From Swingsia samuiensis (GTDB lineage Bacteria; Pseudomonadota; Alphaproteobacteria; Acetobacterales; Acetobacteraceae), in assembly GCF_006542355.1 (NCBI RefSeq), contig NZ_CP038141.1, positions 1,742,001-1,806,000 of the forward strand: a stretch of 64,000 nt of DNA, in the 5' to 3' direction. Each line of letters opens with the position of its first letter. Position 1 is the first letter of the stretch. The notes under the pieces are model-generated. The model had not been told where the DNA came from. It did not search any database and saw only the letters and a program-made list of their open reading frames with translations. The translations under genes were made by a program, and so were the position numbers. This document shows positions 24 to 52,003 of this stretch, piece after piece.

Positions 24-1205
24 ATGATCAATCAGGCATTTACAACACGGAACGTTATTCCAGCCAGAAGGATAGGGGTCTCTTTTATTCTTCTTGCTTT
101 GTTTGCCGGCCTTTTAGGGGGAGCACTCGCTTTTCTTAAACTGCCGACAGAGTCCACCGCAGGGCAAGTTTTTTGCCATGGAATTTTAATGACTTTTTAT
201 GTCATGTGCCCTGCAGTTTTAGGTGGCTTTTGGAATTTTTTTCTTTCTGATGAATTAAAAGTCAAGCATTCGACTTTACCAGTCGCAACGGTTGCCGGCT
301 TATGCTTTTTGTCCGCCGGGATCGTTTTGTTACCCCTTCAGCCTGTTTTGGGGGTATTGTGTTGGTCTGTTGGTATTTTATGCGTTGCTTTAGATGTTAT
401 TACGACCTTCTTAGAAGGAAGGTCTGTTTCTTTTAAAAATATTTCGCCTTTCGCATGGTCTGTTCTAGCAACAGCATCGGGTGCAATTATTATAGCTTCG
501 GCTCTTGCTGCTCTTGTGACACGCTTAGTTGTGGATGAGAGTTCGGTCAGCAAAGTATATACACTCGCACATATTCTTTATCTTCCAGAACAGGCTTTGA
601 TGATCACCCCAGCGCTCGGGTTGGTCTGTCATGTTTTGTTGGCGAAAACGAACAAAACATCCGCACTTTCATTTAGAATTGCGTCATATATTTTCGGTAT
701 TATTGCCGTTATTGGTCCGTTATGCTGGTTAGATAGTTTGTTTGGTGCGTTTCCATTAGTGCTGGAAAAGTATTTGTTTCTGCTTACACAGCTAATTCCG
801 GTCTCATTTCTAGTGCTGGCTGTATGTTGGGATGCTTGGAACACACGCCGTGAACTCACGGGTGTAACCTTATGGGCTGTAGCTAGTCTTATTCTTTTTG
901 GGATCAGCTGGGTTACAGAATTTCTTTATTCTGGTTCTTTTGTTGAACATACAGCGGCCTCCTTTGGTGGCGTAATGGCTTTATGCTGTGGTTTATACGC
1001 GTGGATACAAAAGCTATATCCATCGGGCTTTCCTTCAACATTATGCCGTATACATGCAGGTTTAACTTTTTTTGGGGCTCTTTGTTCTTTACTCCCCTCG
1101 TTAATGATTATGGGAGAAGGAATGATGGGGGTAAGTCTCCTTACGTTTGGATTGCTGGGCCTCTCTTTGGTTAAAGCGGCAGAGCAAAGCCGAGTAAGAA
1201 TATGA
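24..1205 (+). CDS. Degenerate cytochrome c oxidase subunit I-like membrane protein (vestigial)
   Basis: 393-residue polytopic membrane protein, against roughly 530 residues for normal subunit I. Family landmarks can still be aligned: His52 in CHGILMTF matches the HG(L/M)IM helix, LPEQA (187-191) matches HPEVY, WLDSLF (235-240) matches the WAHHMF site, and 306-328 matches the HFHYV...GFYYWI helix. In this alignment the low-spin haem histidines remain (His52, His309). The active-site residues are replaced: His to Leu187, Tyr to Ala191, the His pair to Asp237-Ser238, and the haem a3 His to Val307. Oxygen reduction is therefore very unlikely. It overlaps ctaB by 4 bases (ATGA). No Shine-Dalgarno sequence precedes this ATG and the frame is open to the window edge, so the true start may lie upstream. 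The family assignment rests on motif alignment by eye. Confidence 0.7.
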   Translation: MINQAFTTRNVIPARRIGVSFILLALFAGLLGGALAFLKLPTESTAGQVFCHGILMTFYVMCPAVLGGFWNFFLSDELKVKHSTLPVATVAGLCFLSAGIVLLPLQPVLGVLCWSVGILCVALDVITTFLEGRSVSFKNISPFAWSVLATASGAIIIASALAALVTRLVVDESSVSKVYTLAHILYLPEQALMITPALGLVCHVLLAKTNKTSALSFRIASYIFGIIAVIGPLCWLDSLFGAFPLVLEKYLFLLTQLIPVSFLVLAVCWDAWNTRRELTGVTLWAVASLILFGISWVTEFLYSGSFVEHTAASFGGVMALCCGLYAWIQKLYPSGFPSTLCRIHAGLTFFGALCSLLPSLMIMGEGMMGVSLLTFGLLGLSLVKAAEQSRVRI

Positions 1206-4495: not shown

Positions 4496-5757
4496 GCAGC
4501 AAGCCTTGCAGAAATATCCTCAAGAGAGGGAAGGTTTTTTACAGGACCAATAGCGGTAAATGTTGGAGTGCCTGAGAACAACTCGGCAGCGACACGTAGA
4601 ATATCGGTTTCTGTCACGTTGTCTATTTTAGCAACGGTTTCCTCAATAGGAATGGGGCGCCCATGAACTTGCATCTGCCGGGCTAGTTGTTCACAGCGAC
4701 TGCCTGTGCTTTCCAGCGACATCAGGAGCGCAGATTTGAGTTGTGCCCTTGCGCGAGACAGTTCCTCTGCGCTGATACCATTCTGTAACCGTTTAAGTTC
4801 GTCTATGACGACAGGTACGAGCTCGGCTGTTTCTTCTTCACCAGTGCCAGCATAAATGCCGAATAATCCGCTATCATTGAAAGAAGATGCAAAAGAATAA
4901 ACGCTATAGACAAGGCCACGTCGCTCCCTAATTTCCTGAAAGAGACGCGAGGACATTCCCCCTCCAAGAAGGGTGGATAAGATCATGACATTATAATAAT
5001 CAGGATGACGATAGCTTACGGATGGGAAGCCTAAGAGAAGATGAGCCTGATCTAATTCACGAGAGGTTCTAAGATCGCCCCCAGTATAATGTGCCTGATG
5101 TGAACGCTCTACTTGGTGAGTAGGGAGGTCTTTAAAATGTTTTTTGACGAGTTCAATAACATCATCATGGTGTAGATTGCCTGCTGCGGCAATCGTGATG
5201 TTATGTGTCGTGTAATGTTCTTTCATGTAGTTCATGAGTGTTTCACGGGTCATATTGGAAACTAGCTCAGAGGTTCCCAAAATAGGACGTCCCATTGGTT
5301 GGTCGGGAAATGCACTCTCTTGGAAATGGTCAAAAATGATATCATCTGGCGTATCATTGGCTTGGCCAATTTCTTGTAAGATGACCCCACGTTCGCGTTC
5401 AATTTCAGCATCTAAAAATGTACTGTGGGTTAGAATATCGCCAATAATATCCACCCCAAGAGCAAGGTCTTCTTTTAAGAGCTTTACATAATAGGCCGTT
5501 GTTTCACGTGCTGTATAAGCATTAATAAAGCCGCCAACATTTTCAATTTCTTCTGCAATACGGGCAGCAGAACGGCGTTCTGTTCCTTTAAAGGCCATGT
5601 GCTCAAGGAAATGGGAGACGCCGTTATTTTCGACATTTTCATCACGTGTGCCGATAGAAACATAGGCTCCAAAAGAGACGGTTTCAACGCGCTCCATACG
5701 CTCTGTGATGATCGTTAATCCGTTATCGAGTGTAGTAACCTGAATTGTATCGGACAT
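4492..5757 (-). CDS. M16 family zinc peptidase (processing-peptidase-like)
   Basis: 421-residue M16B peptidase related to mitochondrial processing peptidase beta. The inverted zinc motif HFLEH is at 49-53 and the third ligand is most likely Glu129 (VILQEI), 76 residues downstream as expected. The C-terminal non-catalytic half has the glycine-rich LLGGGMSSRLFQEIRERRGLVYS motif region. There is no signal peptide, so it is probably cytoplasmic. The gene lies downstream of thrC, separated by a terminator hairpin, and overlaps pmbA. This M16-after-threonine-synthase order is common in alphaproteobacteria. The natural substrate is unknown. Confidence 0.9.
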   Translation of the reverse strand: MSDTIQVTTLDNGLTIITERMERVETVSFGAYVSIGTRDENVENNGVSHFLEHMAFKGTERRSAARIAEEIENVGGFINAYTARETTAYYVKLLKEDLALGVDIIGDILTHSTFLDAEIERERGVILQEIGQANDTPDDIIFDHFQESAFPDQPMGRPILGTSELVSNMTRETLMNYMKEHYTTHNITIAAAGNLHHDDVIELVKKHFKDLPTHQVERSHQAHYTGGDLRTSRELDQAHLLLGFPSVSYRHPDYYNVMILSTLLGGGMSSRLFQEIRERRGLVYSVYSFASSFNDSGLFGIYAGTGEEETAELVPVVIDELKRLQNGISAEELSRARAQLKSALLMSLESTGSRCEQLARQMQVHGRPIPIEETVAKIDNVTETDILRVAAELFSGTPTFTAIGPVKNLPSLEDISARLAA

Positions 5758-5770
5758 AATTTTCCGTAAG

Positions 5771-5805
5771 AAAAAAAAGATTAGGCTCCCTAAGATGGGG
5801 AGCCT
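5771..5805 (-). terminator. Rho-independent terminator after thrC
   Basis: Read on the minus strand, an 8-bp perfect stem AGGCTCCC/GGGAGCCT (5805-5798 with 5790-5783) with a 7-base loop is followed by AATC and eight T (5778-5771). It sits between the thrC stop and the M16 peptidase start, so it ends or attenuates transcription from thrC into the peptidase. Confidence 0.85.
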
Positions 5806-5824
5806 GACAAAGAGAACAAGTTAT

Positions 5825-7225
5825 TTATTTACGTTTCATGTGGTCACGAACGGCTTGCTGGATTGTGGCGAGTTCGTTGCCAAGAGAATCAAACCGTTCT
5901 TCACGCTCAAAAAGATCCGCCAAATGAGGGGGAAGCTTAGGGTCAAGCCCGGTTGCCGCTTTTACGGCATCTGGGAACTTGGCTGGGTGAGCTGTAGCCG
6001 CAGCTACCATAGGTATTCCCGGCTCTTTAAACTCTTTCCCGACAGCGAGTCCAATCGTACTATGTGGGTCTGCCAGATACAAACTTTCTGCATAGAATTT
6101 ACGCATTGCTGCGCTGGTTTGCTCATCAGACAAGGTCATTCCATCAAAGGATTCCTTCATACGCATCCAAGCATCCTGAGGGACAGCCATACGTCCTGTT
6201 TGACGGAAATCTTTCATGATGGTGGCACAACGCACTGGGTCTTGATCCAGGAGTTCAAACAAGAGACGCTCAAAGTTTGAAGAAACCTGAATATCCATCG
6301 ATGGTGAAAGACTGGGCTCTACTTTGCGGACGCTCATGTCATTATCGACGAGGAAGCGCGTTAGAATATCATTTCGGTTTGAGCCAATGCATAAACGTTT
6401 AATGGGCAAACCCATTTGTTTGGCTGCCCATGCGGCAAGAACATTCCCAAAATTTCCTGTCGGAACAGAAAAAGAAACTTCTCGGTCTGGAGCGCCAAGT
6501 GCGAGTGCCGCGCGGATATAGTAAGGGATTTGGGCTGCAATACGCGCCCAGTTGATAGAGTTTACGGCAGAGAGAGAGACATCATCACGAAAAGCCTTGT
6601 CTGCGAACATGGCTTTTACGATGTCTTGGCAGGTATCGAAATCCCCGTCGACAGCGATATTGAGAATGTTGTCATCCAAGACGCTTGTCATCTGGCGACG
6701 TTGAACTTCAGATGTCCGGCCTTTTGGATGAAGAATAACCACAGAAAGGCGTTCACGACCACGACAGGCTTCAATTGCCGCAGATCCTGTATCGCCGGAT
6801 GTTGCCCCAACAATGGTTACGTTTTGATTGCGTTCTGTGAGAACATGGTCAAATAAACGGCCCAACATTTGCATGGCCATGTCTTTGAACGCCAAGGTAG
6901 GGCCATGAAAAAGCTCAAGAGCGTAGAGATCTTGCTCAACTTCACTGAGCGGAGCGACGGCTGCATGATCAAAATGCTTGTAAGCATCATGTGTCATTGT
7001 ACGCAACGTAGCCAGATCAATAGAGCCGGCAGTGAAGAGAGAAATCACTTCTGCTGCAAGATCTGGATAAGAAAGGCGTCGCCAGTCACGAAGAGTTTGA
7101 GGGCTAATTTGAGGCCAGAATTCAGGCATATATAGCCCGCCATCATCTGCTAGACCAGCAAGAAGAATGTCGGAGAAGTTGGGGGAGTGAGCGGTGAGCT
7201 CACCTCGTGTTGATCTGTAGCGCAT
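5825..7225 (-). CDS. thrC: Threonine synthase
   Basis: 466-residue PLP enzyme converting O-phosphohomoserine to threonine. The PLP lysine is Lys114 in LAFKD and the phosphate-binding loop is GATSGDTGSAA (140-150). The N-terminus MRYRSTRGE and length match the longer (type 2) threonine synthases of proteobacteria. It lies 15 bases after the MRJP-like gene on the same strand and before the M16 peptidase, from which a strong terminator separates it. No threonine-leader attenuator is evident upstream because the preceding gene is so close. Confidence 0.95.
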   Translation of the reverse strand: MRYRSTRGELTAHSPNFSDILLAGLADDGGLYMPEFWPQISPQTLRDWRRLSYPDLAAEVISLFTAGSIDLATLRTMTHDAYKHFDHAAVAPLSEVEQDLYALELFHGPTLAFKDMAMQMLGRLFDHVLTERNQNVTIVGATSGDTGSAAIEACRGRERLSVVILHPKGRTSEVQRRQMTSVLDDNILNIAVDGDFDTCQDIVKAMFADKAFRDDVSLSAVNSINWARIAAQIPYYIRAALALGAPDREVSFSVPTGNFGNVLAAWAAKQMGLPIKRLCIGSNRNDILTRFLVDNDMSVRKVEPSLSPSMDIQVSSNFERLLFELLDQDPVRCATIMKDFRQTGRMAVPQDAWMRMKESFDGMTLSDEQTSAAMRKFYAESLYLADPHSTIGLAVGKEFKEPGIPMVAAATAHPAKFPDAVKAATGLDPKLPPHLADLFEREERFDSLGNELATIQQAVRDHMKRK

Positions 7226-7240
7226 AGTTTTCTTTATATA

Positions 7241-8254
7241 TCATAATTTTTGCATAATCACACTTGTTGATGGCAGCGCGATTTTGAGAATGTGAGGAAC
7301 ATTGGCTTCTGTGGTGAAGACCATAACCTGATTGTTTTCTGTAGGAGTTAAAGCGCCTGCATTTATGAAGCGTGGATCATGCAACATAATGAGAGGAGTG
7401 CGTTCTGGGCCAAAAGCTAATAAGGCTCCATTCGTGATATCTGAGAAGAAAAAGAGATTTTGGTTTGATAAAGATATCCCTCCCAGACTGGGAGTGTCTC
7501 TCCATTGAACGATGCCATCGAGCTGTTCAACTGGGGTGAAATTGGGGTCTGTGAGTAAGGTTGTATCAATTCGATATAGAGGTCCAGAAGCCGCAGCGTA
7601 AAAGAGCCAGTGGCTATGAGGGGACAGAGCAAGATATCGGATATTTCCACCGGATACAGGGAGGTTATCTTTTCCTGTATGAAGAGAGTGATTTTGGAGA
7701 AGAGGACGATGTCCTTTGAGGGATATGTCGTAAGAAAGAAACCTGTTGCTCTTTCTGGTTTCAAGAGAAAGGGCGATGAGAGCCGGATTCCCTTCATCCG
7801 CAATGAAAGCAAAATTTTGGCTAATGGCTACGGCTGTCAGATGACTATTTTTTTGAATGGATTCTTCTAAAGAAATTGTTTGAATAAGCTGACCCGTTTT
7901 CGAAAGTTTCAGGAGTTGAAACGGAGCTTTAGCGGTTATGCCCCATACATAGGTCTGATCATAGGTAAGGGTTGAAAGGGCGGGAATATTATTGGGTTTA
8001 TGTGAGGGAACTAAAGAAGAAACAGTCCCTGTTTCAGGATTTAAAACAACTGGGGCCCCTGTTTCTGTTAAAGCCAGTAAGCGTGAAGCACTTAATTCAA
8101 TAAGTGAAGAGGTTTTGATACCGGGAAATGGAGTATCCGCCACAATCTTTGCTTGTTGCGGAGCATCTTTCCACGGATGCTCCGCAAAAGCAGGAGACGT
8201 ACATATTATGCCGAATAAGGCACTGAGGATAGAATATAGAAATCGGTTATTCAT
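7241..8254 (-). CDS. Secreted Yellow/major royal jelly protein-like beta-propeller
   Basis: 337 residues with a clear signal peptide (hydrophobic run then SPAFA, cut after about residue 24). The body resembles the MRJP/Yellow beta-propeller family: FAFIADEGNPALIALSLETRKS (family-like AYI.D.G...LIV.DL.TG.S) and later NIRYLALSPHSHWLFYAA..GPLYRI (family-like GIALSPDG.WLYY...LYRI), then a GGISLSNQNLFFFSD blade. Bacterial members are periplasmic or secreted and mostly uncharacterised; some are proposed to bind small aromatic compounds or act as lactonase-like propellers. It precedes thrC by 15 bases, with no functional link seen. The family call comes from motif resemblance only. Confidence 0.6.
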   Translation of the reverse strand: MNNRFLYSILSALFGIICTSPAFAEHPWKDAPQQAKIVADTPFPGIKTSSLIELSASRLLALTETGAPVVLNPETGTVSSLVPSHKPNNIPALSTLTYDQTYVWGITAKAPFQLLKLSKTGQLIQTISLEESIQKNSHLTAVAISQNFAFIADEGNPALIALSLETRKSNRFLSYDISLKGHRPLLQNHSLHTGKDNLPVSGGNIRYLALSPHSHWLFYAAASGPLYRIDTTLLTDPNFTPVEQLDGIVQWRDTPSLGGISLSNQNLFFFSDITNGALLAFGPERTPLIMLHDPRFINAGALTPTENNQVMVFTTEANVPHILKIALPSTSVIMQKL

Positions 8255-47968: not shown

Positions 47969-48097
47969 GTGGATCTTGTTTTTGATTTCATAACGAGAAT
48001 GAGAAAGGGAGCAGAGATGGCCACTGTTGGTAGCTTTGATGCGCACCTTATCTTGTCAAACCGCTACCGGTTTCAGAGACAGTACCGGATGGGATGA
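47969..48097 (+). CDS. Candidate leader ORF upstream of cyoA
   Basis: 42 codons from GTG at 47969, with AGGAG (47958-47962) 6 bases upstream, to TGA at 48095-48097, which overlaps the ATG of cyoA at 48094 (ATGA). An internal in-frame ATG at 48017 also has GGGAG 5 bases upstream and would give 26 codons. The peptide is basic (Arg-rich end [12 protein letters not shown]) and has no membrane span. Two good ribosome sites plus the exact stop-start overlap suggest a translated leader coupled to cyoA. The coding potential itself is unproved. Confidence 0.4.
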   Translation: MDLVFDFITRMRKGAEMATVGSFDAHLILSNRYRFQRQYRMG

Positions 48098-49038
48098 TGA
48101 AAGCAGGACCGATGAAAAAACTCTGGCGATATCTTCCAGCGTTGCCGGCGCTGATGCTATCGGGATGTACGGTTGATCTTTTGCAACCGGCGGGTCCGGT
48201 TGGTGAACTGAACCGCAATGTACTTGTGATCGAATTTGCGGTCATGATGTGTATTGTGGTTCCCGTTTGCATTGCGACAGTATATTTCGCTTGGAAATAT
48301 AGAGCATCGAATACAAAGGCAGAATATCTTCCTGATTGGAGCCATTCTACAAAAATTGAATACTTCATTTGGGGTATTCCAACAGTTATAGTGGCTATTT
48401 TGTCCGTTATGAACTGGTGGAGTACACATGTTTATGATCCTTACCGTCCTCTCCCCGCAGAGGTCGCAGGCACAAACAAACCTCTTAATGTTCAGGTTGT
48501 TGCATTAGACTGGAAATGGTTGTTTATTTACCCAGATTTGGGAATTGCAACAATTAACCAGCTTGATATTCCAACAAAGACAGCGTTGAATTTTCAAATT
48601 ACGTCAGATTCTGTTATGACGGCGTTCTTTATTCCACGTCTTGGCTCAATGATATATGCGATGCCAGGAATGCAGACGCAGTTGCATTTGTTAGCTAGTC
48701 AATCTGGAGATTTTCTGGGGGAAGCATCTCAGTATAGTGGAGGTGGTTTCTCAGATATGAAATTCCGCGCTATCGCGATGCCTCAAGCTCAGTTTAATGA
48801 GTGGGTTGAGAAGGTAAAAAGCGAAAACAGCAGCTTGGATGCGACAACGTATTCTAAATATGCTGCACCACAGATTGCTGCTCCAGTACATTATTTTGCG
48901 CATGTTCAGCCTGAATTGTTTGATGGCATCGTTGCTAAATATAATAACGGCATGATGGTTGATAAAACGACAGGTAAAGTCATGCATATGCAGTCTGTAT
49001 CAGATGCTGCATCGTCCGACACTGGCATGAAGGAATAA
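48094..49038 (+). CDS. cyoA: Cytochrome bo3 ubiquinol oxidase subunit II
   Basis: 314 residues (308 if starting at the ATG 48112, whose AGGA is only 3 bases away). A lipoprotein signal ends LMLSGC, with the Cys at residue 25. Two membrane spans follow (about 42-64 and 86-107), then a periplasmic cupredoxin-like domain without CuA ligands, as in quinol oxidases ([23 protein letters not shown]). The C-terminal CyoA extension is present. It is the first gene of cyoABCD and appears translationally linked to the leader ORF. Confidence 0.96.
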
Positions 49039-49045
49039 CCGACAG

Positions 49046-51034
49046 ATGCTGGGAAAACTCACATGGTCAGCTGTGCCGCTGGATGTGCCTATTGTTATGG
49101 CCACATTCGCTGGTGTAGCTGTTATTGGCCTCGCTGTGCTGGGGCTTATTACCTATTTTGGAAAATGGGGATATTTGTGGCGTGAATGGTTAACAACTGT
49201 TGATCATAAACGCCTTGGTGTCATGTATATTGTTGTGGCTCTGGTGATGCTGGTCCGTGGTTTTGCGGATGCCATCATGATGAGAACACAATTAGCAATG
49301 GCTTATGCAGGTAACCCCGGTTATTTGCCGCCACATCACTATGACCAGATTTTCTCTGCCCATGGAACGATCATGATTTTCTTCATGGCCATGGCATTTA
49401 TGACTGGTCTTTTGAATATTGTTGTACCTTTGCAAATCGGTGCACGAGACGTAGCATTCCCATTCCTGAACTCCCTTAGCTTTTATATGACGCTAACGGG
49501 TGTTGTTCTTGTAATGGCATCATTGTTTATTGGTGAGTTTGCTCAATGTGGTTGGCTTGTTTATCCACCACTGTCAGAGATCCAGTTTAGTCCTGGGGTA
49601 GGTGTTGATTACTACATCTGGGCTGTTCAGATTTCTGGTGTTGGGACTTTGTTAACAGGTGTTAACTTCTTTACGACACTTGTGAAGATGCGGGCGCCTG
49701 GCATGGGTTGGATGCAAATGCCAGTTTTCTGCTGGACTGCATTGTGCACCACAGTGTTGATTATGACATCCTTCCCAATTTTAACGGTTGCGCTTGGCCT
49801 GCTAAGCCTTGATCGTTATTTGGGAATGCACTTCTTTACAAATGATGCTGGCGGTAACGCCATGCTGTACCTGAACCTGATTTGGGCATGGGGTCACCCA
49901 GAAGTTTATATTCTGATTATCCCAGCTTTCGGTGTTTTCTCAGAAGTTACAGCAACATTCTCACGTAAGCCGCTTTTTGGTTACAATACGATGGTATATG
50001 CGACATGTTCGATCATGGCGCTTTCTCTCGTCGTTTGGGTTCACCACTTTTTCACCATGGGTGCTGGAGCTAACGTAAATAGCTTCTTTGGTATTATGAC
50101 GATGATCATTGCCGTGCCTACAGGTGTTAAAATCTTTAACTGGTTGTTCACAATGTATAAGGGCCGTGTTGAATTCACAGCTCCGATGTATTGGACGATC
50201 GGCTTTATGATCACATTCTCAATCGGTGGTATGACAGGCGTTATGATGGCTATGCCTGCTGCGGATTGGATCGTGCATAACTCACTGTTCCTGATTGCTC
50301 ACTTCCATAACGTTATTATCGGTGGTGTGTATTTCGGTTATGTCGCAGGGATGGATTATTGGTTCCCGAAAGCATTCGGTTTTAAGCTGAATGAAAAATG
50401 GGGCAAACGCGCATTTTGGTGCTGGTTCTTCGGTTTCTACCTTGCTTTCGGACCTCTTTACATTCTTGGTCTTGAAGGTATGACACGCCGTCTTAACCAT
50501 TATAACAATCCACAATGGCATCCATGGCTTCTTGTTGCTGAGGGTGGCGCAATTGTTGTTGCTATGGGAATTATTTGCCAGCTTACGCAAATTTACGTTT
50601 CCATACGTGACCGTAACCTTCCAGAAAACAGGGATCTTACGGGTGATCCATGGAATGGCCGTACGCTTGAATGGTCTATTTCTTCACCACCGCCTGCCTA
50701 TAACTTTGCTGTTATGCCAAACATTCATGGTTTGGATACATTCCATGAAGATAAGAAGTTAGGCCGTCCAGCAACAGGGCATGCGATTGAACCTATTCAT
50801 ATGCCAAAGAATACAGCTGTAGGTGCAATTATTGGTGCCTTTGCAATCCTGTTTGGTTTTGCTGCGGTATGGCATATTTGGTGGGTCGTTGGCTTGTCAT
50901 TCTTCGGGATCATTGTGACGGTAATTGCACGTAGTGCGAACCGTGATATTGATTATTACGTACCGGTTGATGAGATTGAGCAGCATGAGAGAGCTTTTGA
51001 TCAGCGCATTGCTGCAGCTCAGCCAGCAGAGTAA
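49046..51034 (+). CDS. cyoB: Cytochrome bo3 ubiquinol oxidase subunit I
   Basis: 662-residue catalytic subunit. Low-spin haem ligands His106 and His420, high-spin haem ligand His418, CuB ligands His283, His332 and His333, and the cross-linked Tyr287 are all present. The ubiquinol-site residues Arg71, Asp75, His98 and Gln101 are at the same numbers as in E. coli. It reduces oxygen to water and pumps protons while oxidising ubiquinol. Heme O should come from ctaB at 1.2 kb, as no cyoE is attached to this operon. Confidence 0.99.
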
Positions 51035-51050
51035 AGGAGGCACATAATTT

Positions 51051-51668
51051 ATGGCTCACGAAGCGTCTATGTCGCCTTTGGCACATGCCGATGATCATGG
51101 GGGAGAGCATCACGAATCCCCCGTGGTGTTTGGTTTCTGGCTTTACCTGATGACCGACTGCGTTCTGTTTGGTTCAATTTTCGCAGCATTTGCTGTCTTG
51201 CGCCATCAGTATGCTGGGGGTCCAACAGGGAAAGACTTGTTTGATCTTAAGAATGTTGGAATAGAAACAGCAATCTTGCTTGTTTCCTCCATTACCTATG
51301 GCTTTGCTTCACTCAGTGCGATGGCAAAGAAAAAGGGAATGGTTTTGTTATGGTTGCTAGTAACATTTCTTCTTGGCCTTTCATTCGTAGGGTTGGAAGT
51401 AACTGAATTCCATAACATGATTGCAGAGGGTAATGGGCCAGATCGTTCAGCGTTCTTGTCAGCATTCTTTACGCTGGTGGGAACTCACGGTCTGCACGTT
51501 AGCTTTGGTCTGCTTTGGATGGTGGTTTTGATGTTCCAGATGTGTGGTGCACAGGGCTTGTCCGAACGGATGATGAATAAGCTGGCTTGCTTAAGCTTGT
51601 TCTGGCACTTTCTTGACATTGTCTGGATCTGTGTTTTCTCCTTCGTTTATCTGGCAGGAGTAATGTAA
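51051..51668 (+). CDS. cyoC: Cytochrome bo3 ubiquinol oxidase subunit III
   Basis: 205 residues with five membrane spans, the number typical of CyoC. FGFWLYLMTDCVLFGSIFAAF and the THGLHVSFGLLWM segment are family signatures. A strong Shine-Dalgarno sequence (AAAGGAGG) lies about 10 bases before the ATG. Its stop shares one base with the cyoD start (TAATG). It helps assemble and stabilise the oxidase and its proton uptake. Confidence 0.97.
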   Translation: MAHEASMSPLAHADDHGGEHHESPVVFGFWLYLMTDCVLFGSIFAAFAVLRHQYAGGPTGKDLFDLKNVGIETAILLVSSITYGFASLSAMAKKKGMVLLWLLVTFLLGLSFVGLEVTEFHNMIAEGNGPDRSAFLSAFFTLVGTHGLHVSFGLLWMVVLMFQMCGAQGLSERMMNKLACLSLFWHFLDIVWICVFSFVYLAGVM

Positions 51669-52003
51669 TGACCCAAGCTCCAACAACGACAATGACAAGT
51701 GATAGCCACGGTTCGTATGGATCGTATCTTGTTGGGTTTATTCTAGCTGTTATTTTGACCGTCGCGTCATTTGCAGTTGTTATGAGCCACGCATTCTCTC
51801 CAACAGTTACTATGTCCCTACTTGGGGTTTTGGCTGTTGTGCAGATTATCGTTCACTTGATCTTTTTCTTGCACTTGAATACGAGCACAGAGCAAAGCTG
51901 GAATTTGTTGGCTTTCTTTGTGGCTGCAGCAACGGTGGTTATCGTTGTAGGTGGTGTGCTCTTTGTGATGCACGACACAGCCGTCAATATGATGTCTCGT
52001 TAA
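51668..52003 (+). CDS. cyoD: Cytochrome bo3 ubiquinol oxidase subunit IV
   Basis: 111 residues, three membrane spans. SYLVGFILAVILTVASFAVV and the QIIVHLIFFLHLNTSTEQSWN motif are typical of CyoD, a small assembly subunit that helps bind CuB. Last gene of the operon; a strong terminator follows 26 bases after the stop. No surf1-like or cyoE gene comes after it. Confidence 0.97.
   Translation: MTQAPTTTMTSDSHGSYGSYLVGFILAVILTVASFAVVMSHAFSPTVTMSLLGVLAVVQIIVHLIFFLHLNTSTEQSWNLLAFFVAAATVVIVVGGVLFVMHDTAVNMMSR

Follow-up and report, generated by a model that had tools for sequence, protein, structure and literature searches.

A COX1-derived membrane protein family, encoded beside the heme O synthase gene, that has lost the O2-reduction site and retained the low-spin haem histidine pair

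The window, a 64,000-nucleotide stretch of Swingsia samuiensis DNA, opens with ctaD* (positions 24–1205, plus strand, as are all window features given below), a gene encoding a COX1-derived membrane protein of 393 aa with 12 predicted long helices, in which the O2-reduction site is absent. The two histidines that align with the low-spin haem ligands of true CtaD are retained throughout a family of such proteins, which evolve under purifying selection and are encoded directly upstream of ctaB. Our leading reading, to which we assign a probability of roughly 0.47 from sequence data, is that CtaD* may be a membrane protein carrying a single low-spin haem and working with CtaB, probably in the handling of heme O.

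The ctaD* frame runs from an ATG at position 24 to a stop codon at 1203–1205 with no internal stop, and is thus the intact 393-codon frame that a preliminary description of this DNA had reported. The protein matches the Pfam COX1 model (PF00115) at 39.2 bits (cut-off 34.8, E 5e-10), and phmmer matches it to the R. sphaeroides aa3 subunit I with an E value of 3.4e-17. The Pfam scan revealed no second domain above cut-off, and neither PF02628 (CtaA/COX15) nor SURF1 was found among the Pfam matches; in the NCBIfam scan, all models remained far below cut-off. PF00115 is matched at E<=0.01 in only 21 of 28 divergent members of the family. In the whole source genome (2.19 Mb in 2 contigs, with completeness rated at 100%), there are only two COX1 matches at E<=1, ctaD* and the cyoB gene of cyoABCD.

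An AlphaFold model of CtaD* (pLDDT 78, pTM 0.81) has COX1 proteins as its best-matching structures, with TM scores of 0.83 by query length for bovine COX1 (2y69_A) and 0.79 for the R. sphaeroides protein (1m56_A). A model with the two histidines opposite each other had been asked for in the preliminary description; here, helix II contains His52 and helix X contains His309, which bears on that point indirectly. The fold is supported, yet not independently of true CtaD, because the alignment feeding the model consisted of 35 true CtaD sequences, one other CtaD* and the window protein. By sequence, CtaD* is a homologue of COX1 that, judging from its ligands, would fall outside the oxidases.

Alignment with 11 true CtaD proteins of the same bacterial family reproduced, position by position, the pattern that the preliminary description had claimed, namely an oxidase-derived frame in which the low-spin pair is kept and the active site is lost. 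His52 and His309 align with the two low-spin haem ligands. The CuB histidine columns are occupied by Leu187, Asp237 and Ser238, the haem-a3 histidine column by Val307, the cross-linked tyrosine column by Ala191 and the D-channel aspartate column by His82. In the phmmer alignment, residues 86 and 405 of the 535-residue R. sphaeroides chain lie opposite His52 and His309; numbering in the 566-residue chain is 16 higher, and the two residues correspond to His102 and His421, the established low-spin haem ligands of that chain. Glu189 aligns at the retained glutamate, as had been claimed for the window protein, but glutamate is found in 61 of the 103 CtaD* members and is not a trait of the family; the idea of a conserved relic of the proton path was dropped.

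The losses extend across the family. No member keeps more than one CuB histidine, and 56/103 keep one, mostly the first of the pair. The cross-linked tyrosine is found in 0/103 and a histidine at the a3 position in 2/103, and the K-channel lysine column holds Leu, Val, Ile or Phe in 90/103. In 102 of 103 members, the alignment shows a gap at the arginine pair of the GMPRR motif, which binds the haem propionates in COX1; therefore, any haem site in CtaD* would be weakened or altered. A looser site, as this loss suggests, would be in keeping with a carrier, and the loss would also fit a protein that binds no haem.

In contrast to these losses, 103 of 103 homologues have histidine at the helix II and helix X low-spin ligand positions, encoded in the window by CAT codons at 177–179 (His52) and 948–950 (His309). 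The 11 true CtaD proteins share 271 invariant columns, only four of which are also invariant in all CtaD* members: His52, His309, Trp145 and Trp235. The chance that both low-spin histidines would be among four random survivors of 271 is 1.6e-4, a figure that serves as a guide since columns are not independent. Retention of the pair in all 103 homologues is not a matter of chance, and the earlier view that random decay would not have spared it is borne out by the constancy of both residues in frames free of stops. Trp145 (codon 456–458, helix V) and Trp235 (codon 726–728, helix VII, two residues before the lost CuB histidine pair) match the haem histidines in invariance across CtaD* and the 11 true CtaD. 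We know of no role that would explain these invariant tryptophans in a protein without an active site.

Residues invariant in true CtaD are retained most often in helices II (0.52), X (0.44), V (0.43) and I (0.39), helix boundaries being those of the AlphaFold model. Retention is low in helices VI and VII, which bear the CuB ligands (0.24 each), and equally low in helices VIII (0.20) and III (0.23).

The CtaD* family includes at least 103 full-length members, one per genome, in 19 genera of one bacterial family, presumably the acetic acid bacteria, judging in part from a Komagataeibacter xylinus record. Among the CtaB matches listed in named genomes, only that of K. xylinus (L087) is accompanied by CtaD*. 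When 200 genomes of this family were searched with the CtaD* protein, 40 short COX1-like frames of full length emerged, along with one truncated at the end of a contig. More members came from a profile search of 397 genomes followed by targeted fetching, in which short-frame matches among the best listed and eight others were retrieved. L070/L178 of G009, cut by a contig end, a fragment (L255) and L087, a likely duplicate of L220 with a contig of equal length, were left out of the 103, and L066/L177 were treated as one locus. A row labelled CYOB in the alignment with true CtaD contained the wrong ORF and enters no count.

Frameshifted orthologues, or orthologues devoid of the two histidines, had been named earlier as observations that would speak against a retained function; among the 103 homologues, neither histidine is lost and no frame contains a stop. 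In three profile matches flagged with one stop, the stop lies at the edge of the match, either ahead of the start codon or where the frame itself terminates. A sequencing error in a single genome is excluded by the 103 open homologues, and misalignment was set aside on the basis of the 103-member alignment and codon checks. The CtaD* of G056 has diverged and was missed by the single-protein search, yet both low-spin histidines are kept.

A class-wide search of 385 genomes with the CtaD* profile, at a threshold (E<=1e-85) at which diverged members are missed, gave matches in 83 genomes, three of them known CtaD* genomes and 80 outside the family. In 79 of these 80, the frames measure at least 524 aa. 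A strong profile match outside the family (G440:C11:4641-5963) is a COX1-like frame of 477 aa with one TAA, and may be a broken or cut true CtaD or an independent case. The plasmid search returned 11 records with short partial matches, which correspond to heme O synthase wherever the gene is annotated.

Codon usage and substitution rates indicate that CtaD* is under selection. The His52 codon is CAT in 63 members and CAC in 40, and the His309 codon is CAT in 84 and CAC in 19; both codons are in use, and therefore the DNA drifts while the residue stays. Nei-Gojobori dN/dS values, a comparison among close relatives that had been proposed at the outset, range from 0.08 to 0.24 in 17 of 20 close pairs and denote purifying selection. 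The three higher pairs are L051/L060 (0.34), L064/L068 (0.33) and L066/L069 (0.64, with 0.40 for ctaB in the same pair). In none of the 20 pairs is the value for CtaD* below that for ctaB, and CtaD* is therefore under weaker constraint than ctaB. Six measurable pairs in the genus of the window have values of 0.06–0.09; these are pairs of other ctaD* genes of that genus, as the three pairs including the window gene are saturated and their dS is not defined.

In a tree of 35 CtaD* and 18 true CtaD sequences, CtaD* forms one side of a branch with an SH-aLRT of 100, and its branches sum to ~44 substitutions per site, compared with ~3 for the others. In the CtaB tree, carriers of CtaD* fall into two clades, a large one of 49 rows and a small one of 6; next to these, a true-CtaD genome and G001 share an unresolved fork. 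Because of their long branches, both trees serve only as a guide, and the trees would accommodate either one or two origins of CtaD*.

The gene downstream of ctaD* is ctaB, encoding heme O synthase (1202–2149; TIGR01473, 324.3 bits, cut-off 210.3). The ctaD* stop and the ctaB start overlap in an ATGA sequence at 1202–1205, an arrangement that may couple the translation of the two genes. A start in the ctaB frame with a 4-base overlap is found in 27/40 ctaD* loci, compared with 1/11 true ctaD loci, and 26/40 ctaD* loci end in ATGA. In each of 40 loci, ctaD* immediately precedes ctaB on the same strand (a 41st locus is truncated by the end of its contig), and this adjacency is observed in all 65 loci fetched later. 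Every viewable carrier therefore has ctaB, which gives substance to the link with heme O synthase suggested in the preliminary description.

The surroundings of ctaD* resemble in part those of true ctaD. The ctaC gene is present in 11/11 true ctaD loci and a PmtA-like gene in 5/11; for instance, the gene order in L078 is PmtA-ctaC-ctaD-ctaB. PmtA is found in all 40 CtaD* loci having ctaB in view, and the 40 fetched ctaD* loci contain no ctaC match. Downstream of ctaB, an ORF encoding an Arg-rich, single-TM peptide of 40 aa (2146–2268) has no NCBIfam match. It lies where true COX operons have a small CoxF-like ORF and may belong to the same ctaB unit; by manual count, a small one-TM ORF follows ctaB in 26/40 CtaD* loci. 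The order of ctaD* and ctaB may simply be a carry-over from the ancestral operon.

Genes for oxidase assembly are distributed differently in the two groups of genomes. CtaG was found in 0/42 CtaD* carriers and in 10/11 true-CtaD genomes, and SURF1 in 0/42 and 11/11, respectively. Heme A synthase (CtaA) is present in 20/42 carriers, and therefore CtaD* is not tied to heme A. In the source genome, heme A synthase (PF02628), CtaG/Cox11 and SURF1 were all unmatched at E<=0.001. The window carries cyoABCD (48094–52003; TIGR01433, TIGR02843, TIGR02842 and TIGR02847 above cut-offs), encoding a cytochrome bo3-type ubiquinol oxidase. Because cyoE was not seen among the window ORFs after cyoABCD, ctaB is the apparent source of heme O for this oxidase, and CyoABCD likely uses the heme O made by the ctaB product.

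Ten genomes without a CtaD* match, chosen for that absence, were checked for ctaB. The gene is absent in five (G029, G066, G070, G076 and G116) and present in five (G056, G001, G031, G050 and G077); among the latter, G056 had the diverged CtaD* and the other four had none. G210 also lacks both ctaB and CtaD*, bringing such genomes to six (ctaB at E<=1e-20). Co-loss of CtaD* and ctaB is suggestive only, since the absence of CtaD* was the reason for choosing these genomes. G076 comes from a genus with a true CtaD, and the stretch before ctaB is off the contig in G031. In G001 (L174, about 5640-7350), PmtA adjoins ctaB with nothing in between; ctaB is kept without ctaD*, and CtaD* is therefore dispensable there. 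G001, a natural knockout of ctaD*, also has two open frames, of 676 and 984 aa, that match COX1 strongly. G029, G116 and G066 (L286, L287 and L288) each encode a single COX1-family protein of a different kind, 777–832 aa long, which is possibly a quinol nitric oxide reductase; scans of L286 and L288 yielded no NCBIfam name.

In a record titled as an Asaia bogorensis MAG (L089), the CtaD is a true one of full length (TIGR02891 above cut-off), and the CtaB shares only 58% identity with that of the window. These features are not expected of acetic acid bacteria, and the record is possibly a mislabelled bin.

According to our leading reading, CtaD* would be a COX1 fold reduced to the half that carries the low-spin haem. 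The ancestral gene would have belonged to a ctaC-ctaD-ctaB operon, located behind a PmtA-like gene and making an aa3 cytochrome c oxidase. When respiration shifted to a quinol oxidase, ctaC would have left the locus and ctaG and surf1 would have disappeared; ctaD itself has lost the CuB and a3 sites, and its fold and bis-His site have stayed under purifying selection. We infer that one haem may be bound between the helix II histidine (His52) and that of helix X (His309), and that CtaD* may act as the membrane partner of co-translated CtaB. The haem held would most likely be heme O, which has a farnesyl tail like the low-spin haem a of the ancestor; the alternative would be heme B, the substrate. 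CtaD* could help CtaB to work, or could pass heme O to CyoB, or to CtaA where present. A more specific version, in which a retired oxidase subunit turned, in one lineage, into a dedicated carrier of heme O or activator of heme O synthase, is held more tentatively and at less than even odds. As a heme O carrier, the low-spin half of COX1 would be a membrane haem chaperone that serves the replacement quinol oxidase in cells without SURF1.

The bis-His site is an electron-transfer site in the ancestral oxidase, and CtaD* might have become a stand-alone membrane cytochrome with a single haem, devoted to electron transfer or redox sensing, with no haem handover. Such a protein could, for instance, reduce haem for CtaB or exchange electrons with the quinone pool, and both the ctaB linkage and the selection on CtaD* would fit it. 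However, ctaC, encoding the old electron donor, is gone from all 40 ctaD* loci, no second Pfam domain accompanies the COX1 match, and a constant link to ctaB points more to haem metabolism than to respiration; we regard this cytochrome as unlikely, though worth keeping in mind. Somewhat less probable again is a structural or stoichiometric scaffold for the assembly of CtaB or CyoB that binds no haem, in which the histidine pair would serve for packing. In the available part of one report, the multimerisation of yeast Cox10 seems to be driven by, and dependent on, newly made Cox1 (PMC7140478). Loss of the arginine pair that holds the propionates would also suit a scaffold. The two tryptophans are as invariant as the histidines, and we know of no haem role for them. 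Nonetheless, it is difficult to see why exactly the two ligand histidines, located on opposite sides of the haem in COX1 structures, would be fixed if no haem were bound.

Two further explanations dispense with a function of the protein itself. A leader ORF, kept only for the translational coupling or expression of ctaB, would account for the 4-base overlap in 27/40 loci, but predicts no selection at the residue level. The His/Trp pattern, the fold model and the dN/dS values contradict it, and the 13/40 loci without overlap still keep the protein; we set this explanation aside as very improbable. A decaying ctaD pseudogene would agree with the lost catalytic ligands and with branches far longer than those of true CtaD. 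As an account of the whole family it is refuted, and is barely credible, in view of 103 members with no stop in frame, the constancy of both histidines despite CAT/CAC drift, and dN/dS values well below 1.

CtaD* as a haem-binding partner of CtaB thus remains our preferred reading. CtaD* looks like a functioning haem protein, which would revise the view that this gene is a dead relic in a bacterial group of industrial use. A protein keeping one haem site beside ctaB, after giving up all other tasks of subunit I, would be a natural reagent for questions of haem delivery, in relatives that are both harmless and amenable to genetics. As a clean experiment of nature, the family may show which half of COX1 is expendable while a fold with one haem site stays.

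Matsutani et al. reportedly described, in 2014, a partial COX cluster (ctaBD) of A. pasteurianus in which ctaD was taken to be non-functional owing to accumulated mutations. In the same work, A. pasteurianus ctaB alone is said to have made heme O in E. coli; therefore, CtaD* would not be needed for CtaB catalysis as such. In its available part, another paper lists A. pasteurianus ctaD (APT_01775), beside ctaB (APT_01774) and conserved in three strains, as a cytochrome c oxidase subunit, with no mention there of histidine retention or selection (PMC5158111). This ctaD very likely belongs to the CtaD* family. CtaA-CtaB complexes provide a precedent for partners of CtaB (PMC9145763, available part), and haem delivery to heme O synthase and haem A insertion into subunit I are called unknown in the accessible portions of two papers (PMC7140478, PMC9145763). 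No description of the CtaD* family, of its fixed histidine pair or of selection on it was found in the open-access literature, and the terms cytochrome, heme and oxidase are absent from the main text of a Gluconobacter knockout paper.

CtaD* may be compared with two groups of known proteins. CtaA/COX15 and SURF1 bind haem in the membrane and are partners of either CtaB or subunit I, a role proposed here for CtaD* too, but CtaD* has no Pfam match to either. CtaD* resembles CtaD/COX1 of the type A haem-copper oxidases in its Pfam match, its fold and both low-spin histidines, as well as in its position before ctaB and in the PmtA-like gene at the locus, as in 5/11 true operons. In contrast to CtaD/COX1, CtaD* has no CuB site, haem-a3 ligand, cross-linked tyrosine, K-channel lysine or arginine pair; ctaC was not found in the locus, nor ctaG and surf1 in the genome. 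The window protein is also shorter, measuring 393 aa compared with 530–552 aa in the 11 true CtaD.
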